Shown here one piece after another: positions 3,257 through 9,137 of a DNA stretch of 64,000 nt. The stretch spans positions 1-64,000 of the forward strand of contig JACAFD010000068.1 of NCBI GenBank assembly GCA_013388555.1, read 5' to 3'. The stretch's first letter is position 1. Every line of letters begins with the position of its first letter. The position numbers and the translations under genes are program-made. The notes below the pieces were generated by a model. The model ran no database searches and was not told the origin of the DNA. It saw only the letters and a program-made list of their open reading frames with translations. The stretch comes from Nitrospirota bacterium (lineage in GTDB: Bacteria > Nitrospirota > Nitrospiria > Nitrospirales > Nitrospiraceae).

Positions 3257-4732
3257 CTAGACAGCGCTGTATAGCTGACGAATCAGGAGTTTGCTTCGAA
3301 GTGGTCGAGGATGGGCTTGTCGAGGAAGCCGACTCTTCATAGTCCGTCGGTGACTGGGTAGTGACTGAGCGGTTGATCCTGTAATACTCGAAGTGCAAGC
3401 GACACGGGAACGCAAAAGAGGAAGAGAGTTGACGGCCATCGGCAGTGCGTCCGGCACAGGCGCTGCAGTTATTCCCGGGAGGAATGACTTCAATTTGAAA
3501 CCGACGCCTTTGATTGCGATCAACCGACACAGTTGTTCAGGATCGCGATTGAGCTGCTGCCGAATCGCATGGACATGCACGTCCAAAGTGTGATGGCCGA
3601 TTGCAAAGTCGGTCCCCCACACGAGCTTGATCAATTCGCTCCGGCTGAAGACTTTCGAAGGGGCCTTCATGAGAACTTCGAGAATTGCAAAGGGTTTGGC
3701 AGAAAGCTGAAAGCGCCGTCCTCCTACTTTGACCTCATGGGAATCCGCATCCAATTCGACTGCGCCAACACGCCAGATACCGCGTCGAGACTGTTCATAG
3801 CCGGCTCGCCTGAGATAGGCGGTTATTTTCGCCAGCAGAAGCCGCGGCCCCTCATACGTGAAATGCACACCGTCTATTCCCCGATCCAGACCAGCCTGAC
3901 AGTCCTCTTCGGTGTAGACGAATCCGGGAGGGACCAATGCAATCATGAGAATATGTCTGAGCGCGGTATCCGTGCGTAGCATATCCCAATCGCTTGCCCT
4001 CGGATCGACCACCACCATCGAAACCGGCGTATGGTTAGCAATCGAGAAGATCTCCGCCACAGAGGGAACGACTCGGATGGGATGGTTTGAACGATGGAGC
4101 TGTTCCTCAGTCTGCTTGGCAAACGTGGCATCGGGCGACAGAATCAGGATCAGGGCAGGATTCGTTGGCGGGGCCAGCCCCACCTGAGAAGAAGAAGATA
4201 TTGCGGCAGCGGGTCTCTTGAGAGATGGTACCTGCCGAAGGATAACTCCGAGAACGCCGATCAATGCCGGCCCAAAAAGAACAGCTGCCGAGGGCAGGGG
4301 AGAGATCGGCTTGACTGGTACCCTGCTCTGTAGCAGGACCGTTCCTGGACTCATCTGTGTCGTGCCGAAACTGGAAAGGTTCTGTGACAGATCGAGTCCT
4401 AGGCGGTTGGGGTTCTGGTCGATTGTCGAACTCGGAACTCTGGCGATCTCTGGAGCCAACCGGTAGAACGTACCGGCCAACTCATAGGCTTCGCCGAATG
4501 GGACTCCAACCAGCGAGAAGGCGTTTTCTGTCTGCGAGACCGCGGATTCAGAAACGGGGAAACCGATCCCCCAGTTACGGATATTGGTCACCGAGATGAT
4601 TCGTTCGTCCCTGTTGTCCAGCGAGAGGATCGTCGCGGCATGGGACGGATTTGTCATGCCGACTTCGGGTGCGCACAGAAGCATCAACCCGACAAGGAGT
4701 CGGACGTTCGGTATGTTCCTCAATCCCGTCAT
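3257..4732 (-). CDS. Chimeric protein: signal peptide, short extracytoplasmic region, PEP-CTERM-like anchor, degenerate receiver, OmpR-type winged-helix domain
   Basis: Single 491-aa ORF: SHAATILS cleavage-like site; PLPSAAVLFGPALIGVLGVILRQ at residues 145-167; REC-like segment ~190-312; wHTH VGGRRFQLSAKPFAILEVLMKAPSKVFSRSELIKLVWG...LDVHVHAIRQQL...GVGFKL. Confidence 0.8.
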   Translation of the reverse strand: MTGLRNIPNVRLLVGLMLLCAPEVGMTNPSHAATILSLDNRDERIISVTNIRNWGIGFPVSESAVSQTENAFSLVGVPFGEAYELAGTFYRLAPEIARVPSSTIDQNPNRLGLDLSQNLSSFGTTQMSPGTVLLQSRVPVKPISPLPSAAVLFGPALIGVLGVILRQVPSLKRPAAAISSSSQVGLAPPTNPALILILSPDATFAKQTEEQLHRSNHPIRVVPSVAEIFSIANHTPVSMVVVDPRASDWDMLRTDTALRHILMIALVPPGFVYTEEDCQAGLDRGIDGVHFTYEGPRLLLAKITAYLRRAGYEQSRRGIWRVGAVELDADSHEVKVGGRRFQLSAKPFAILEVLMKAPSKVFSRSELIKLVWGTDFAIGHHTLDVHVHAIRQQLNRDPEQLCRLIAIKGVGFKLKSFLPGITAAPVPDALPMAVNSLPLLRSRVACTSSITGSTAQSLPSHRRTMKSRLPRQAHPRPLRSKLLIRQLYSAV

Positions 4733-4812: not shown

Positions 4813-5487
4813 TTAAGTCTCTGCGTTCATCATGCGACGGATCAATCCAGCTAAACCGATCAACCCGCTACCGAACAAAAATACCGCCCCAGGCAATGGC
4901 ACCGGCGACGCTTGGGCGCCTCCCAATTGGGCGGTGCCTTGAAGTGAGAAGGTTCCGGACGTCAGAAACGGAATCCCGGTGAACTGATGCGTCCACGAAA
5001 TATCAAAGGCATTCGTGATGTCATTGAATGACCCGGTGGCACTCCCTCCGATATTCAAGGAGGCCGTCAACGGAGTCGAGGGACTCGTCAGCAGCCCCGA
5101 CCAGCCGGTGCTGGTCACGCCGGCAAAGAGCGATTGGAGGTCCGCCGTCATGGTGGCTCCCGAAGTCTGCGCGGTCGGGGCGGGAAGATTGAGTGTCCCT
5201 CCGCTGCTGGTGAAGATCGAAAGGGTTAGGTGGGAAATCGTGATTGGGTCGAGCAGATTCGGCGCCGGCTGGTACTGTCCCATCACCAATTCTCCGTCCC
5301 GCATAAAATTCCTCGTGACCGACCCCAGCCCTCCAAAATTCAAACCGATCGATCCACCGGCGATGTCCAGTTGTGTCACAATGGCAGCCGTGGCCGGCGC
5401 CGGCATGTACCAGAGCGCCGACGCAGCCAGGAACGCCATCATGCCTCCCTTGATTGTTCTGCAAGGTTCGGTCTTCATGGTGTTCAT
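4813..5487 (-). CDS. PEP-CTERM sorting domain protein
   Basis: Signal peptide; C-terminus VPLPGAVFLFGSGLIGLAGLIRRMM. Confidence 0.88.
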   Translation of the reverse strand: MNTMKTEPCRTIKGGMMAFLAASALWYMPAPATAAIVTQLDIAGGSIGLNFGGLGSVTRNFMRDGELVMGQYQPAPNLLDPITISHLTLSIFTSSGGTLNLPAPTAQTSGATMTADLQSLFAGVTSTGWSGLLTSPSTPLTASLNIGGSATGSFNDITNAFDISWTHQFTGIPFLTSGTFSLQGTAQLGGAQASPVPLPGAVFLFGSGLIGLAGLIRRMMNAET

Positions 5488-5586: not shown

Positions 5587-6123
5587 TTAGGCCGCTTTCT
5601 TCATCTTCCGACGGGCCAAGCCGACCAAGCCGATCAAGCCGCTCCCGAACAAATACACGGCCGCTGGGACCGGCACAGGGGCGGGAGAACCCCACATCGT
5701 GAGAGTGTAACTTCCTCCGGAACCACCCACCCCTGCCGGATGGAGATGATAGTCACCAGGGGGCATGGCTATTCCCAGATTAGCTAAGGGAAAGGAAGTA
5801 AAAGATGTAGCCGCCGCCCCCCCTGGAACCGGCGAATCGTTTACGTTTTCAAAAATCGACGCGCCAAACCACTGCGATAGACTATTGGTCGTCGACGTCA
5901 TATTGAAATGAGTGAACGCACCTAGGTCGAAGTTAATGGTGTCCTGAAAAAAACCGCCCGTTTGGTTAATAGTGATAACAGCTGGGTTCGCCACATCCCC
6001 GTATCCGGCACCAAAGGCCTGGTTCGGGTCATACGGAATGGCCTGTGCGGTCGTACAGAGGGCAAGAGCGCCGGCGGCGACTAAGCCGACGACCGCTGCC
6101 TTGAGCTTCGTTCTGGTTTTCAT
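5587..6123 (-). CDS. PEP-CTERM sorting domain protein
   Basis: Signal peptide; C-terminus VPVPAAVYLFGSGLIGLVGLARRKMKKAA. Confidence 0.9.
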   Translation of the reverse strand: MKTRTKLKAAVVGLVAAGALALCTTAQAIPYDPNQAFGAGYGDVANPAVITINQTGGFFQDTINFDLGAFTHFNMTSTTNSLSQWFGASIFENVNDSPVPGGAAATSFTSFPLANLGIAMPPGDYHLHPAGVGGSGGSYTLTMWGSPAPVPVPAAVYLFGSGLIGLVGLARRKMKKAA

Positions 6124-6379
6124 GGTGAACTCCTTTTATTTGGTTGATGACAGACTTGCTTGCTGATCTCCTAATCTGAACAACCGCCCTGGGTCCCCCC
6201 TGTTGTCCCTCCTTTCTCCCCTATTTGATCAACTCCGTAACAGCTTCTCTAAACCATTGAGGTGCCAGCCTCTCAAGCCTAAGCTATTGTCCTCTTGCTT
6301 GTACCAGAGGAGCCCGGGCCCCGCTACCGAACCCTGCACCGGTTGCTACAGATGTGATGGAAAAAATCATCCGTGACGA

Positions 6380-6528: not shown

Positions 6529-7419
6529 CTAGCCCCGATTCCGTAGACACTCCCGAAGGGGGACAAGGTTCTGGGTTTCAAACTGCTCGGGACTGACATA
6601 GCCGAGCGTTTGGTGTAACCGTTGCCGATTATAGAACACTTCAATGAACTCAAAGATCTCAGCCCGCGCCTCCTCGCGAGTCTGGTAGTTCCGCTCATGG
6701 ACAAGGTCGTTCTTCAAGGTACTGAAGAAACTATCGGCCACCGCATTGTCATAGCAATTGCCCTTCCGACTAATGCTCGCTGCAATCCCGTACGCAGCCA
6801 GCCGCTGTTGGTAGGCCACACTCGTGTAGGTCGCGCCTTGATCCGTGTGATGCAGGAGTCCCTGGTGCGGCCGACGGGACACGAGCGCCATCTGCAACGC
6901 CTCAAGGGCCAGGTGTTGATCCGGCTTCGCGCTCATCGCCCAGCCAATCACGCGACGCGAGTACAGATCGAGCAGCACCGCCAGATAGAGCCAGCCGCTC
7001 CGCGTCGCGATGGCCGTGAGGTCTCCCACCCAGATCCGGTTCACCGCAGAGGCCACGAAGACCTGGTGCAGCCGGTTGGGCGCCGGCGGGGCAAACTGAT
7101 GCTGTTCGACCACCACGCGAAACCGTCGCGTCCGTCGCGCTTCGAGGCCATGCGCGCGTCGCAGTCGCGCCACGCGATGGCGCCCACACGCAATGCCCGC
7201 TGCGAGCAAGGCGTGCCACATCTTGACGGCCCCATAGCGCGCCTTGGTCTGCCGATGAAGCCGCTGCAGGTGCTCGAGCAAGTGCGCATTGGCTCGGCTC
7301 CGTGCACTGGCCGGCCGCCGGCGCCACGCATAGTACCCGCTCCGACTCACGCTCAGCGTCTGGCACAGCCGAGTGAGCCGGTGCTCCGCCTGATGGGCGT
7401 GAACAAACCGATACCTCAT
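6529..7419 (-). CDS. IS3-family transposase OrfB (rve integrase core)
   Basis: VWVGDLTAI-type, SRKGNCYDNAVADSFFSTLKNDL, RLHQTLGYVSPEQFE. Confidence 0.93.
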   Translation of the reverse strand: MRYRFVHAHQAEHRLTRLCQTLSVSRSGYYAWRRRPASARSRANAHLLEHLQRLHRQTKARYGAVKMWHALLAAGIACGRHRVARLRRAHGLEARRTRRFRVVVEQHQFAPPAPNRLHQVFVASAVNRIWVGDLTAIATRSGWLYLAVLLDLYSRRVIGWAMSAKPDQHLALEALQMALVSRRPHQGLLHHTDQGATYTSVAYQQRLAAYGIAASISRKGNCYDNAVADSFFSTLKNDLVHERNYQTREEARAEIFEFIEVFYNRQRLHQTLGYVSPEQFETQNLVPLRECLRNRG

Positions 7420-7709
7420 GGCGACTCCTTGGCAAAGTACCTGGCGGCTTTTTTTAAAATGGCGCGCTCCTCGCGGAGGTGCGCATTCTCCCGTCGCAAT
7501 CGTGTGAGTTCATCGGTACTGTGGGCCCGACCGCCTGTACCAGGGAAGGCGGTCTCGCCATGGGTCTCGAGTTCGGTCTGCCACTTATACAGATGGTTGC
7601 GCCGCAAGCCCAACTCGCGGGCCACCGCCGCCGCGGGCCGCCCAGAGGACTTCCAGAGCCGAATCGCTTCAACCTTAAATGCTTTGGTAAACCGTTGTCG
7701 TTCCGCCAT
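7416..7709 (-). CDS. IS3-family transposase OrfA (HTH_Tnp_1)
   Basis: RFTKAFKVEAIRLW, LGLRRNHLYKWQ, LRRENAHLREERAILKKA. Confidence 0.92.
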   Translation of the reverse strand: MAERQRFTKAFKVEAIRLWKSSGRPAAAVARELGLRRNHLYKWQTELETHGETAFPGTGGRAHSTDELTRLRRENAHLREERAILKKAARYFAKESP

Positions 7710-7823: not shown

Positions 7824-8843
7824 TTACACGGAGGCCTTCATTTTGCGACGGGCCAGGCCGACTAAGCTGACAAGGCCGGTTCCGAACAGATAGACCGCTG
7901 CCGGCACAGGGACGGGGGAGGCATTCCCGTTCACGTCCATGCTGATGAGCATGTTCCGGGCCAGACGCGCGTCGGTATAGGCTTGGCCGTACGTCGTTCC
8001 GTTGCAGCTCGTGGAGACTCCCACGCAGCCATTCGGCACGCCGGCTTGCACTGCTGTAAAGAGCGAGGTCAGATCGCTCAAGCTATTCCCGCCGATCACC
8101 AGCGAATAGGTTCCAGCTGCCAGATTGCCTGACCAGGTGACGCTATTGTCGAGAGTATCGCCGTTGTAGCCGTCCCCGACGGAGAGGCCCGTATAGGTCA
8201 TCGTACTTACCAAACCACCCTGGTTCCCCATGGTGACGTTACCGTCGGACTGATACACACCCCAATTGAGGCCACCGAAATCAACGGCACCGCCGCCCTC
8301 GGCGATGACTTCATCCGAGGCGTCGAAGAAAGGCGACCAAGTGGCATAGGCTGGCACGCTTTGCAGATAGCCCCCATCCCCTGGGGTATTGGCAGCGGCA
8401 CCGACCATGGCGGGGCTTTGCAAAGTAGCGATCTGAGCAGGGGTCAATCCGCTGAGGTCTGCCACTCCATCGTGGGATCCCGCCGGCACCTGGCCGCTGA
8501 ACAGGGAGAATCCCGGATTCAGCAGTGACGCACCGTTGCTGTTGGCCGTTCCGGTCACCGTGATGCTGACTGAGGATGGCGCGGTGAGCGTAAAGAAGCG
8601 GAAGCGGTTGTTATGAGTGTCGGCCAGCGTATCGACGGTCGCGGTGCGATTCACGCCGTTGTTGCTCATGCCGGAAATCCAACCCGCATTGCTGCTGACG
8701 GTGGGGACAAAGTTGTTGAAAGATCCGAAGTTGGTCCCGTCGTACAGGGAACTGCCATACCCGACATGCGCAGAGGCTGCGCCGGCAGCCAGCATAAGGG
8801 CGACGGCGGAGAGGGACCCTAGTATTAGGGCTTTATTGTTCAT
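7824..8843 (-). CDS. PEP-CTERM sorting domain protein
   Basis: MNNKALILGSLSAVALMLAAGAASA signal peptide; C-terminus VPVPAAVYLFGTGLVSLVGLARRKMKASV; ORF trimmed from 9470. Confidence 0.87.
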   Translation of the reverse strand: MNNKALILGSLSAVALMLAAGAASAHVGYGSSLYDGTNFGSFNNFVPTVSSNAGWISGMSNNGVNRTATVDTLADTHNNRFRFFTLTAPSSVSITVTGTANSNGASLLNPGFSLFSGQVPAGSHDGVADLSGLTPAQIATLQSPAMVGAAANTPGDGGYLQSVPAYATWSPFFDASDEVIAEGGGAVDFGGLNWGVYQSDGNVTMGNQGGLVSTMTYTGLSVGDGYNGDTLDNSVTWSGNLAAGTYSLVIGGNSLSDLTSLFTAVQAGVPNGCVGVSTSCNGTTYGQAYTDARLARNMLISMDVNGNASPVPVPAAVYLFGTGLVSLVGLARRKMKASV

Positions 8844-9137
8844 AGACAATCTCCTTTTCCATAGTTTAACTGTCGAGGTTCCTTGTGTATGGAAGCACAG
8901 GGTATGGTCCATGCGCTTCACCTTAGTGAGGCTCTTGTTCGGACGCGCGTCTCCTTCCATATCTCCTTTCTCCTTAGAAGTATTCGCGCCTTCCTCTATA
9001 GAGCTGGTATATATACATAGCTGCAATCGTGCGCTACAGACCCCTGCACCAGTTGCAACAGATGCGACACAAATTGCTTGAGGAACACGACTCTTCCGCC
9101 GGGCGCCGCTTATCTGGACCTGATTCATGTTAGACGT

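Follow-up and report, generated by a model that had tools for sequence, protein, structure and literature searches.

A predicted membrane-tethered winged-helix regulator with a PEP-CTERM-derived anchor, and a candidate operator at PEP-CTERM genes, in Nitrospiraceae

The window analyzed here is a 64,000-nt stretch of a Nitrospiraceae assembly (GCA_013388555.1, contig JACAFD010000068.1, positions 1 to 64,000 of the forward strand). At 3257-4732, on the minus strand, it carries one 491-aa ORF, 491 codons without a stop on translation, that runs from an exported-type N-terminus through a transmembrane (TM) anchor into a regulator with an OmpR-type winged helix (wHTH). The gene follows two PEP-CTERM genes, and a third lies past an IS3-type element. 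The features of the locus are:

3257..4732, minus: fused regulator gene, 491 aa; a single ORF whose architecture recurs at 31 loci in 28 genomes
4634..4732, minus: signal-peptide-like N-terminus (aa 1-33); hydropathy peak at aa 7-25, then SHA-A
4304..4633, minus: variable ectodomain (aa 34-143), from comparison with relatives
4235..4303, minus: PEP-CTERM-derived TM anchor SPLPSAAVLFGPALIGVLGVILR (aa 144-166), from PSSM and hydropathy; P147, F153 and G159 invariant
4160..4234, minus: linker (aa 167-191); across 28 members, no internal start with its own ribosome-binding site is conserved
3797..4159, minus: pseudo-receiver (aa 192-312), Asp243 at nt 4004-4006; AlphaFold receiver fold, pocket residues lost
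3488..3775, minus: OmpR/PhoB-type winged helix (aa 320-415); Pfam PF00486, Foldseek to PhoB and PhoP DNA complexes
3260..3487, minus: Arg-rich C-terminal tail (aa 416-491); evolves fast and is disordered in the AlphaFold model
4813..5487, minus: PEP-CTERM gene upstream of the regulator; a homologue forms the G020/G027 fusion ectodomain (80% over 204 aa)
5587..6123, minus: FxDxF-type PEP-CTERM gene heading the gene row; NCBIfam NF038126, E 3.5e-8, below cut-off
6337..6357, minus: candidate operator TCACATCTGTAGCAACCGGTG; 0 mismatches, 213 bp upstream of 5587-6123
7824..8843, minus: PEP-CTERM gene; C-terminus VPVPAAVYLFGTGLVSLVGLARRK
9047..9067, minus: second candidate operator TCGCATCTGTTGCAACTGGTG; 2 mismatches, 203 bp upstream of the start at 8843
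855-1208, 1662-1964 and 2611-2970, minus: conserved small-gene neighbours (SMBP, MerP/CopZ-like HMA, Cys/His-rich exported); recurrence in relatives

A preliminary description, made from the letters and ORFs of the window, had claimed a single minus-strand ORF of this domain order beside three PEP-CTERM genes; both points hold, all three neighbours being on the minus strand and the stop-free frame recurring in relatives. The IS3-type transposase pair (6529-7709, minus strand; HTH_Tnp_1 and rve) sits between two of the PEP-CTERM genes, and the candidate operator at 6337-6357 lies ~170 bp downstream of it. In relatives, the regulator again has as neighbours the genes for SMBP (a small metal-binding protein), a MerP/CopZ-like HMA protein and a short exported protein rich in Cys and His.

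The N-terminus was read as signal-peptide-like from its hydrophobic segment and the SHA-A site that follows. The OmpR-type winged helix (Trans_reg_C, PF00486, aa 339-414, E 1.3e-17) is the only Pfam match in the protein, and it is present in 29/29 family members. No Pfam match was obtained for the receiver-like segment of the window protein, and the receiver model PF00072 matched only 9 of the 29 members (best E 0.004); matches to NCBIfam full-length regulator models reach back to ~aa 191. An AlphaFold model of the protein, built from nine related sequences, gave, mostly with high confidence, a receiver fold at aa 194-309 and a wHTH at aa 319-416. Residues 1-191, anchor included, were unmodelled (pLDDT <50 with nine sequences), as was the tail, so that the modelling proposed earlier confirmed the clear winged helix but was uninformative on the N-terminal half. 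In the tail, a few Arg positions are invariant in six close members. Foldseek searches with the model returned PhoB/OmpR-class regulators, including the atypical orphans GlnR, CosR, RitR and HP1043, and the C-terminal winged helix plus receiver fold place the protein in the OmpR/PhoB class.

Alignment with two canonical regulators of the same genome showed a receiver that retains Asp243, has lost the conserved Thr/Ser and Lys and has a changed acidic pair. The earlier reading of a receiver lacking an evident acidic pocket and the conserved Lys is in line with this, and the protein does not have the residue set (acidic pair, Asp, Thr/Ser, Lys) of a canonical phosphorylatable response regulator. 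A partner kinase is unlikely because the receiver is a pseudo-receiver. A soluble pseudo-receiver OmpR-type regulator is conserved at L040:8238-8945 (minus), L044:7652-8437 (minus) and L039:7461-8168 (plus), ~15 kb from an exosortase in several genomes and beside a PstS-like binding-protein gene. It is also degenerate at the Thr and Lys positions. As soluble paralogues have degenerated at the positions affected in the fused protein, receiver degeneracy predates the fusion.

The best 19-residue hydropathy window of the anchor (nt 4235-4303) averages 2.09, and the chain combines a TM segment with a DNA-binding domain, as transmembrane transcription regulators do. The anchor lines up with those that end the neighbouring proteins (VPVPAAVYLFGSGLIGLVGLARRK), and it scored 20.2 bits on a PSSM built from 11 de-duplicated terminal anchors, a value equalled by just 2 of 260 other proteins of these loci, in agreement with the preliminary claim of a close match. 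When isolated, the window anchor gave no match to curated NCBIfam PEP-CTERM models, and the intact anchors of relatives matched them weakly (best E 2e-5); the PEP-CTERM resemblance of the window anchor therefore rests on the PSSM, the alignment and the relatives. A VPxPAA-like motif (VPIPAA, VPLPGA and VPVPAA among relatives) is retained in the internal anchor at 13/31 loci, namely a clade of ten, the pair G020/G027 and G028. At the other 18, the window's included, it has decayed to forms such as PSSALLFVPALVGLLGV; that of the window lineage is SPLPSAAVLFGPALIGVLGVILRQ, and the window carries SPLPS. The window protein thus lacks the VPxPA-type recognition motif that relatives have, and 325 residues follow its anchor, where an exosortase substrate has its motif within ~ten residues of the C-terminus.

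The anchor has nevertheless been kept. P147, F153 and G159 are invariant in 29/29 aligned members, G162 is kept in 26/29 and Arg166 in 24/29. The dN/dS of the anchor was 0 to 0.32 in seven close pairs, near that of the winged helix; that of the ectodomain was ~0.2-0.6 in six of these pairs, and the seventh gave 1.5 from few changes. These substitution patterns indicate that the transmembrane core is under purifying selection, and that the constraint on the anchor exceeds what is needed to keep it hydrophobic.

The same order of predicted signal peptide, variable ectodomain, PEP-CTERM-derived TM anchor, pseudo-receiver and OmpR-type winged helix was found in 28 of 176 Nitrospiraceae genomes, in three genera. 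The remaining 148 genomes of this panel, in which many assemblies are incomplete metagenome assemblies, served as non-carriers; the relatives named here come from Nitrospira metagenome assemblies. Start codons were assigned mechanically, and the N-termini of G199, G272 and G451 are uncertain. A frameshift, an assembly join or a chance read-through from a PEP-CTERM gene into a regulator gene can practically be dismissed: the junction in G020/G027 does resemble two adjacent genes fused in frame, but the architecture recurs at 31 loci of 28 separately assembled genomes, some of them single-contig. The absence of homologues, named earlier as a finding that would speak against the fusion, was thus not what the search returned.

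In a tree of the receiver and wHTH portion, the family separates from the soluble regulators of the exosortase/EPS locus with support of 100/99; G028 branches nearest to the split between fusion and soluble forms, although its placement is unsure. Five related proteins (G246b, G132b, G449b, G356b and G377) have no TM segment, which implies that tethering is not obligatory throughout the wider clade. At L114-L120 and L099 these five, 317-416 aa long, share the regulator half and have apparently lost the tether. They and the soluble paralogues would suit the alternative that the tether is incidental and the active form soluble, whether translated from an internal start or released through non-specific proteolysis. 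We consider this quite improbable, since no start codon equipped with a ribosome-binding site is conserved across 28 members in the stretch from anchor to receiver, and the anchor, with its invariant P, F and G, is under strong purifying selection. If no internal start is used, the regulator would either work at the membrane, in the manner of other transmembrane regulators (PMC10269533), or be set free by proteolysis.

The ectodomain evolves fast in relatives, and no family match was found for that of the window, which is ~38% identical to the G025 ectodomain; G018 and G028 have a different type. The G018 ectodomain is closest to that of G028, yet its regulator half groups with the window's. 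In G020/G027, ectodomain and anchor together make up a complete PEP-CTERM protein, ~80% identical over 204 aa to the window neighbour at 4813-5487. These comparisons indicate that ectodomains are swapped. Recombination between adjacent, similar anchors would explain the swapping, and the near-identical anchors of adjacent genes would then offer a route to new sensor ectodomains.

The preliminary description saw no exosortase in the window and proposed a genome search, which yielded two, both outside the window (XrtD at G000:C136, the second at C30). The main enzyme is the VPLPA-CTERM-specific XrtD (525 bits, cut-off 400), so that a cognate exosortase is present in the genome, and the VPxPAA-like anchors of relatives resemble its VPLPA signal. 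An exosortase was found in 27/28 carriers vs. 94/148 other genomes (p 1.6e-4, in a test that ignores ancestry). The regulator lies 10-13 kb from an exosortase in G028, G102, G153, G235 and G415; in the last (RBC100), it follows XrtA/PEP-CTERM chain-length, tyrosine-kinase and ATPase genes and one FxDxF PEP-CTERM gene. The G027 locus (L036) combines several PEP-CTERM genes with a fused regulator whose internal VPVPAA anchor is intact, yet an exosortase was not found in this assembly (94% complete).

The preliminary description had proposed that the sorting machinery could release or sense the tether. In a more explicit form of this idea, XrtD would cut the internal VPxPA motif and remove the ectodomain, the stub would be further cut or altered in the membrane, and the regulator would report sorting capacity and adjust PEP-CTERM gene expression. 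The intact anchors at 13 loci, some matching PEP-CTERM models weakly, the specificity of XrtD, the excess of exosortases among carriers and the invariant Gly/Pro-rich anchor core all fit such a switch. The motif, however, has decayed at 18 loci where the anchor is still retained, G027 combines an intact motif with no detected exosortase, and exosortases are common also without the fusion; we therefore regard the switch as unlikely. By analogy, a Notch-like factor, in which XrtD or a later intramembrane protease would process the anchor and free or alter the cytoplasmic part, seems doubtful to a similar degree; if it operates, that part would reset the whole PEP-CTERM regulon, a feedback from sorting to cargo genes. 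Because the VPxPA motif of the window protein has decayed and its isolated anchor matches no curated PEP-CTERM model, where the anchors of relatives still match weakly, release or sensing by the sorting machinery fits part of the family better than the window protein: an intact motif makes processing plausible, and for the protein of the window it is unlikely.

When the regions upstream of the FxDxF gene were aligned in eight carriers, one shared block emerged, the 21-bp element TCACATYTGTAGCAWCYGKTG. With ≤3 mismatches it has only two matches in the 3.5-Mb genome, both upstream of PEP-CTERM genes of the island. Sites with ≤2 mismatches occur in 23/28 carriers vs. 2/148 non-carriers (p 7e-22), in 15/20 vs. 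2/148 when the eight motif-defining carriers are removed (p 2e-15), and in 14/28 vs. 2/148 when only sites unlinked to the regulator are counted (p 2e-11; all by Fisher tests, which ignore shared ancestry). Among genomes with a Pfam PEP-CTERM match, sites are present in 19/24 carriers and 2/57 others. A PEP-CTERM frame lies just downstream at 11/11 exact sites examined and at 32/47 sites overall; for random positions drawn from the same PEP-rich loci the share is 15%. The PEP-CTERM genes with sites are often unlinked to the regulator. The co-occurrence marks the element as a candidate regulon signal of the fused factor and suggests that the factor binds there.

The block contains the direct repeats CATCTGT and CATCYGK, 9 bp apart, with a looser GGTAG ~22 bp on. 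Head-to-tail repeats fit the OmpR/PhoB class, but the usual spacing is 10-11 bp, and the shorter distance counts against the reading that we prefer. So do the five carriers without sites at ≤2 mismatches (G232, G171, G362, G253 and G356) and the two non-carriers with one (G460 and G462, 80% and 70% complete), in which a search for a missed fusion found none. A sigma-54 promoter was considered for the element and dropped, the -24 GG being missing; a search for an RNA leader gave no Rfam match. In G153 and G415 (L161, L172), genes for MauG-like di-haem proteins also have candidate sites upstream, and the regulon may extend beyond PEP-CTERM genes.

The element could instead belong to a different regulator, or to a sigma factor, that simply accompanies the fused gene; the targets of the fused factor would then lie elsewhere. 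The tie between element and regulator is one of sequence co-occurrence, the GGTAG block could belong to a promoter, and profiles of other regulators were compared non-exhaustively. Unlinked sites co-occur with the fusion too, however, and the nearest soluble paralogue occurs in motif-free genomes, so that we judge this ownership somewhat unlikely.

We conclude that the gene probably encodes a membrane-tethered regulator, N-out/C-in and independent of phosphorylation, which controls a PEP-CTERM regulon. The winged-helix regulator with a PEP-CTERM-derived tether of the preliminary description is thereby supported across the family, on architecture, conservation, anchor selection, ectodomain swapping, and motif with its co-occurrence, all read from the genomes. 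In this proposal, an OmpR/PhoB-type pseudo-receiver regulator, related to the one kept in the exosortase/EPS locus, would have been joined behind the anchor of a VPLPA-type PEP-CTERM protein. Signal peptide and anchor would set the orientation of a single-pass protein, ectodomain outside and DNA-binding end inside, as in PEP-CTERM precursors before processing (Haft 2006, PMC1569441), and the anchor would keep the regulator in the inner membrane. The variable ectodomain would be the sensing or interacting part, and the pseudo-receiver a dimer or coupling module independent of standard phosphorylation; the signal more plausibly reaches the regulator through the ectodomain or the anchor. The winged helix would bind TCACATYTGTAGCAWCYGKTG elements upstream of PEP-CTERM genes, its own cluster included, and thereby control surface proteins of the kind that compose the regulator itself. 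We infer in this scheme the topology, DNA binding, any release by exosortase or protease, direction of regulation and signal. The protein may act as a switch, tied to the membrane, for cargo of its own type.

Descriptions of exosortase sorting signals present them as disposable tags at the protein terminus. In at least 28 species-level genomes, spread over three genera of the Nitrospira family, a sorting tag appears to have turned into the tether that holds a transcription factor, accompanied by a shared DNA element at surface-protein genes. The PEP-CTERM/EPS system is linked to floc and biofilm formation and is little understood in Nitrospira; the present data yield a regulator, an element and a gene set open to test for such a system outside Proteobacteria.

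A full-text search of the open-access literature returned no description of PEP-CTERM-anchored regulators. With PhoB/OmpR and the atypical orphans HP1043, GlnR, RitR and CosR the protein shares the receiver and winged-helix fold; it differs in being membrane-anchored and in a receiver without the conserved Thr/Ser and Lys. Atypical receivers independent of phosphorylation are already known. In ToxR and CadC an OmpR-type winged helix is also membrane-tethered, but there the order is N-terminal wHTH, TM segment and periplasmic domain, whereas here it is reversed, with the wHTH C-terminal behind an N-out ectodomain. PEP-CTERM/VPLPA-CTERM proteins (PMC1569441; TIGR03370) have in common with it a signal-peptide-like N-terminus, a secreted-type region, a P-rich motif, a Gly-rich TM segment and basic residues, as well as PEP-CTERM neighbours and an exosortase in the genome. 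Haft 2006 (PMC1569441) places their motifs almost without exception at the very C-terminus and suggests that those with longer tails may not function; in the fused regulator the anchor is internal and followed by 325 residues. PrsK/PrsR and the sigma-54 site of proteobacterial PEP-CTERM genes likewise pair a regulator with a shared cis element (PMC1569441), although the fused regulator is of another class, goes with another motif and has no sigma-54 signature. Transmembrane transcription regulators also combine a DNA-binding domain and a TM segment in one protein (PMC10269533), and Neisseria Rsp has its membrane receptor N-terminal and its DNA-binding domain C-terminal (cited in PMC10269533). 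Compared with these, the fused regulator is set apart by a tether that is an exosortase-type sorting anchor after a predicted signal peptide, and by a pseudo-receiver between the membrane and the winged helix.
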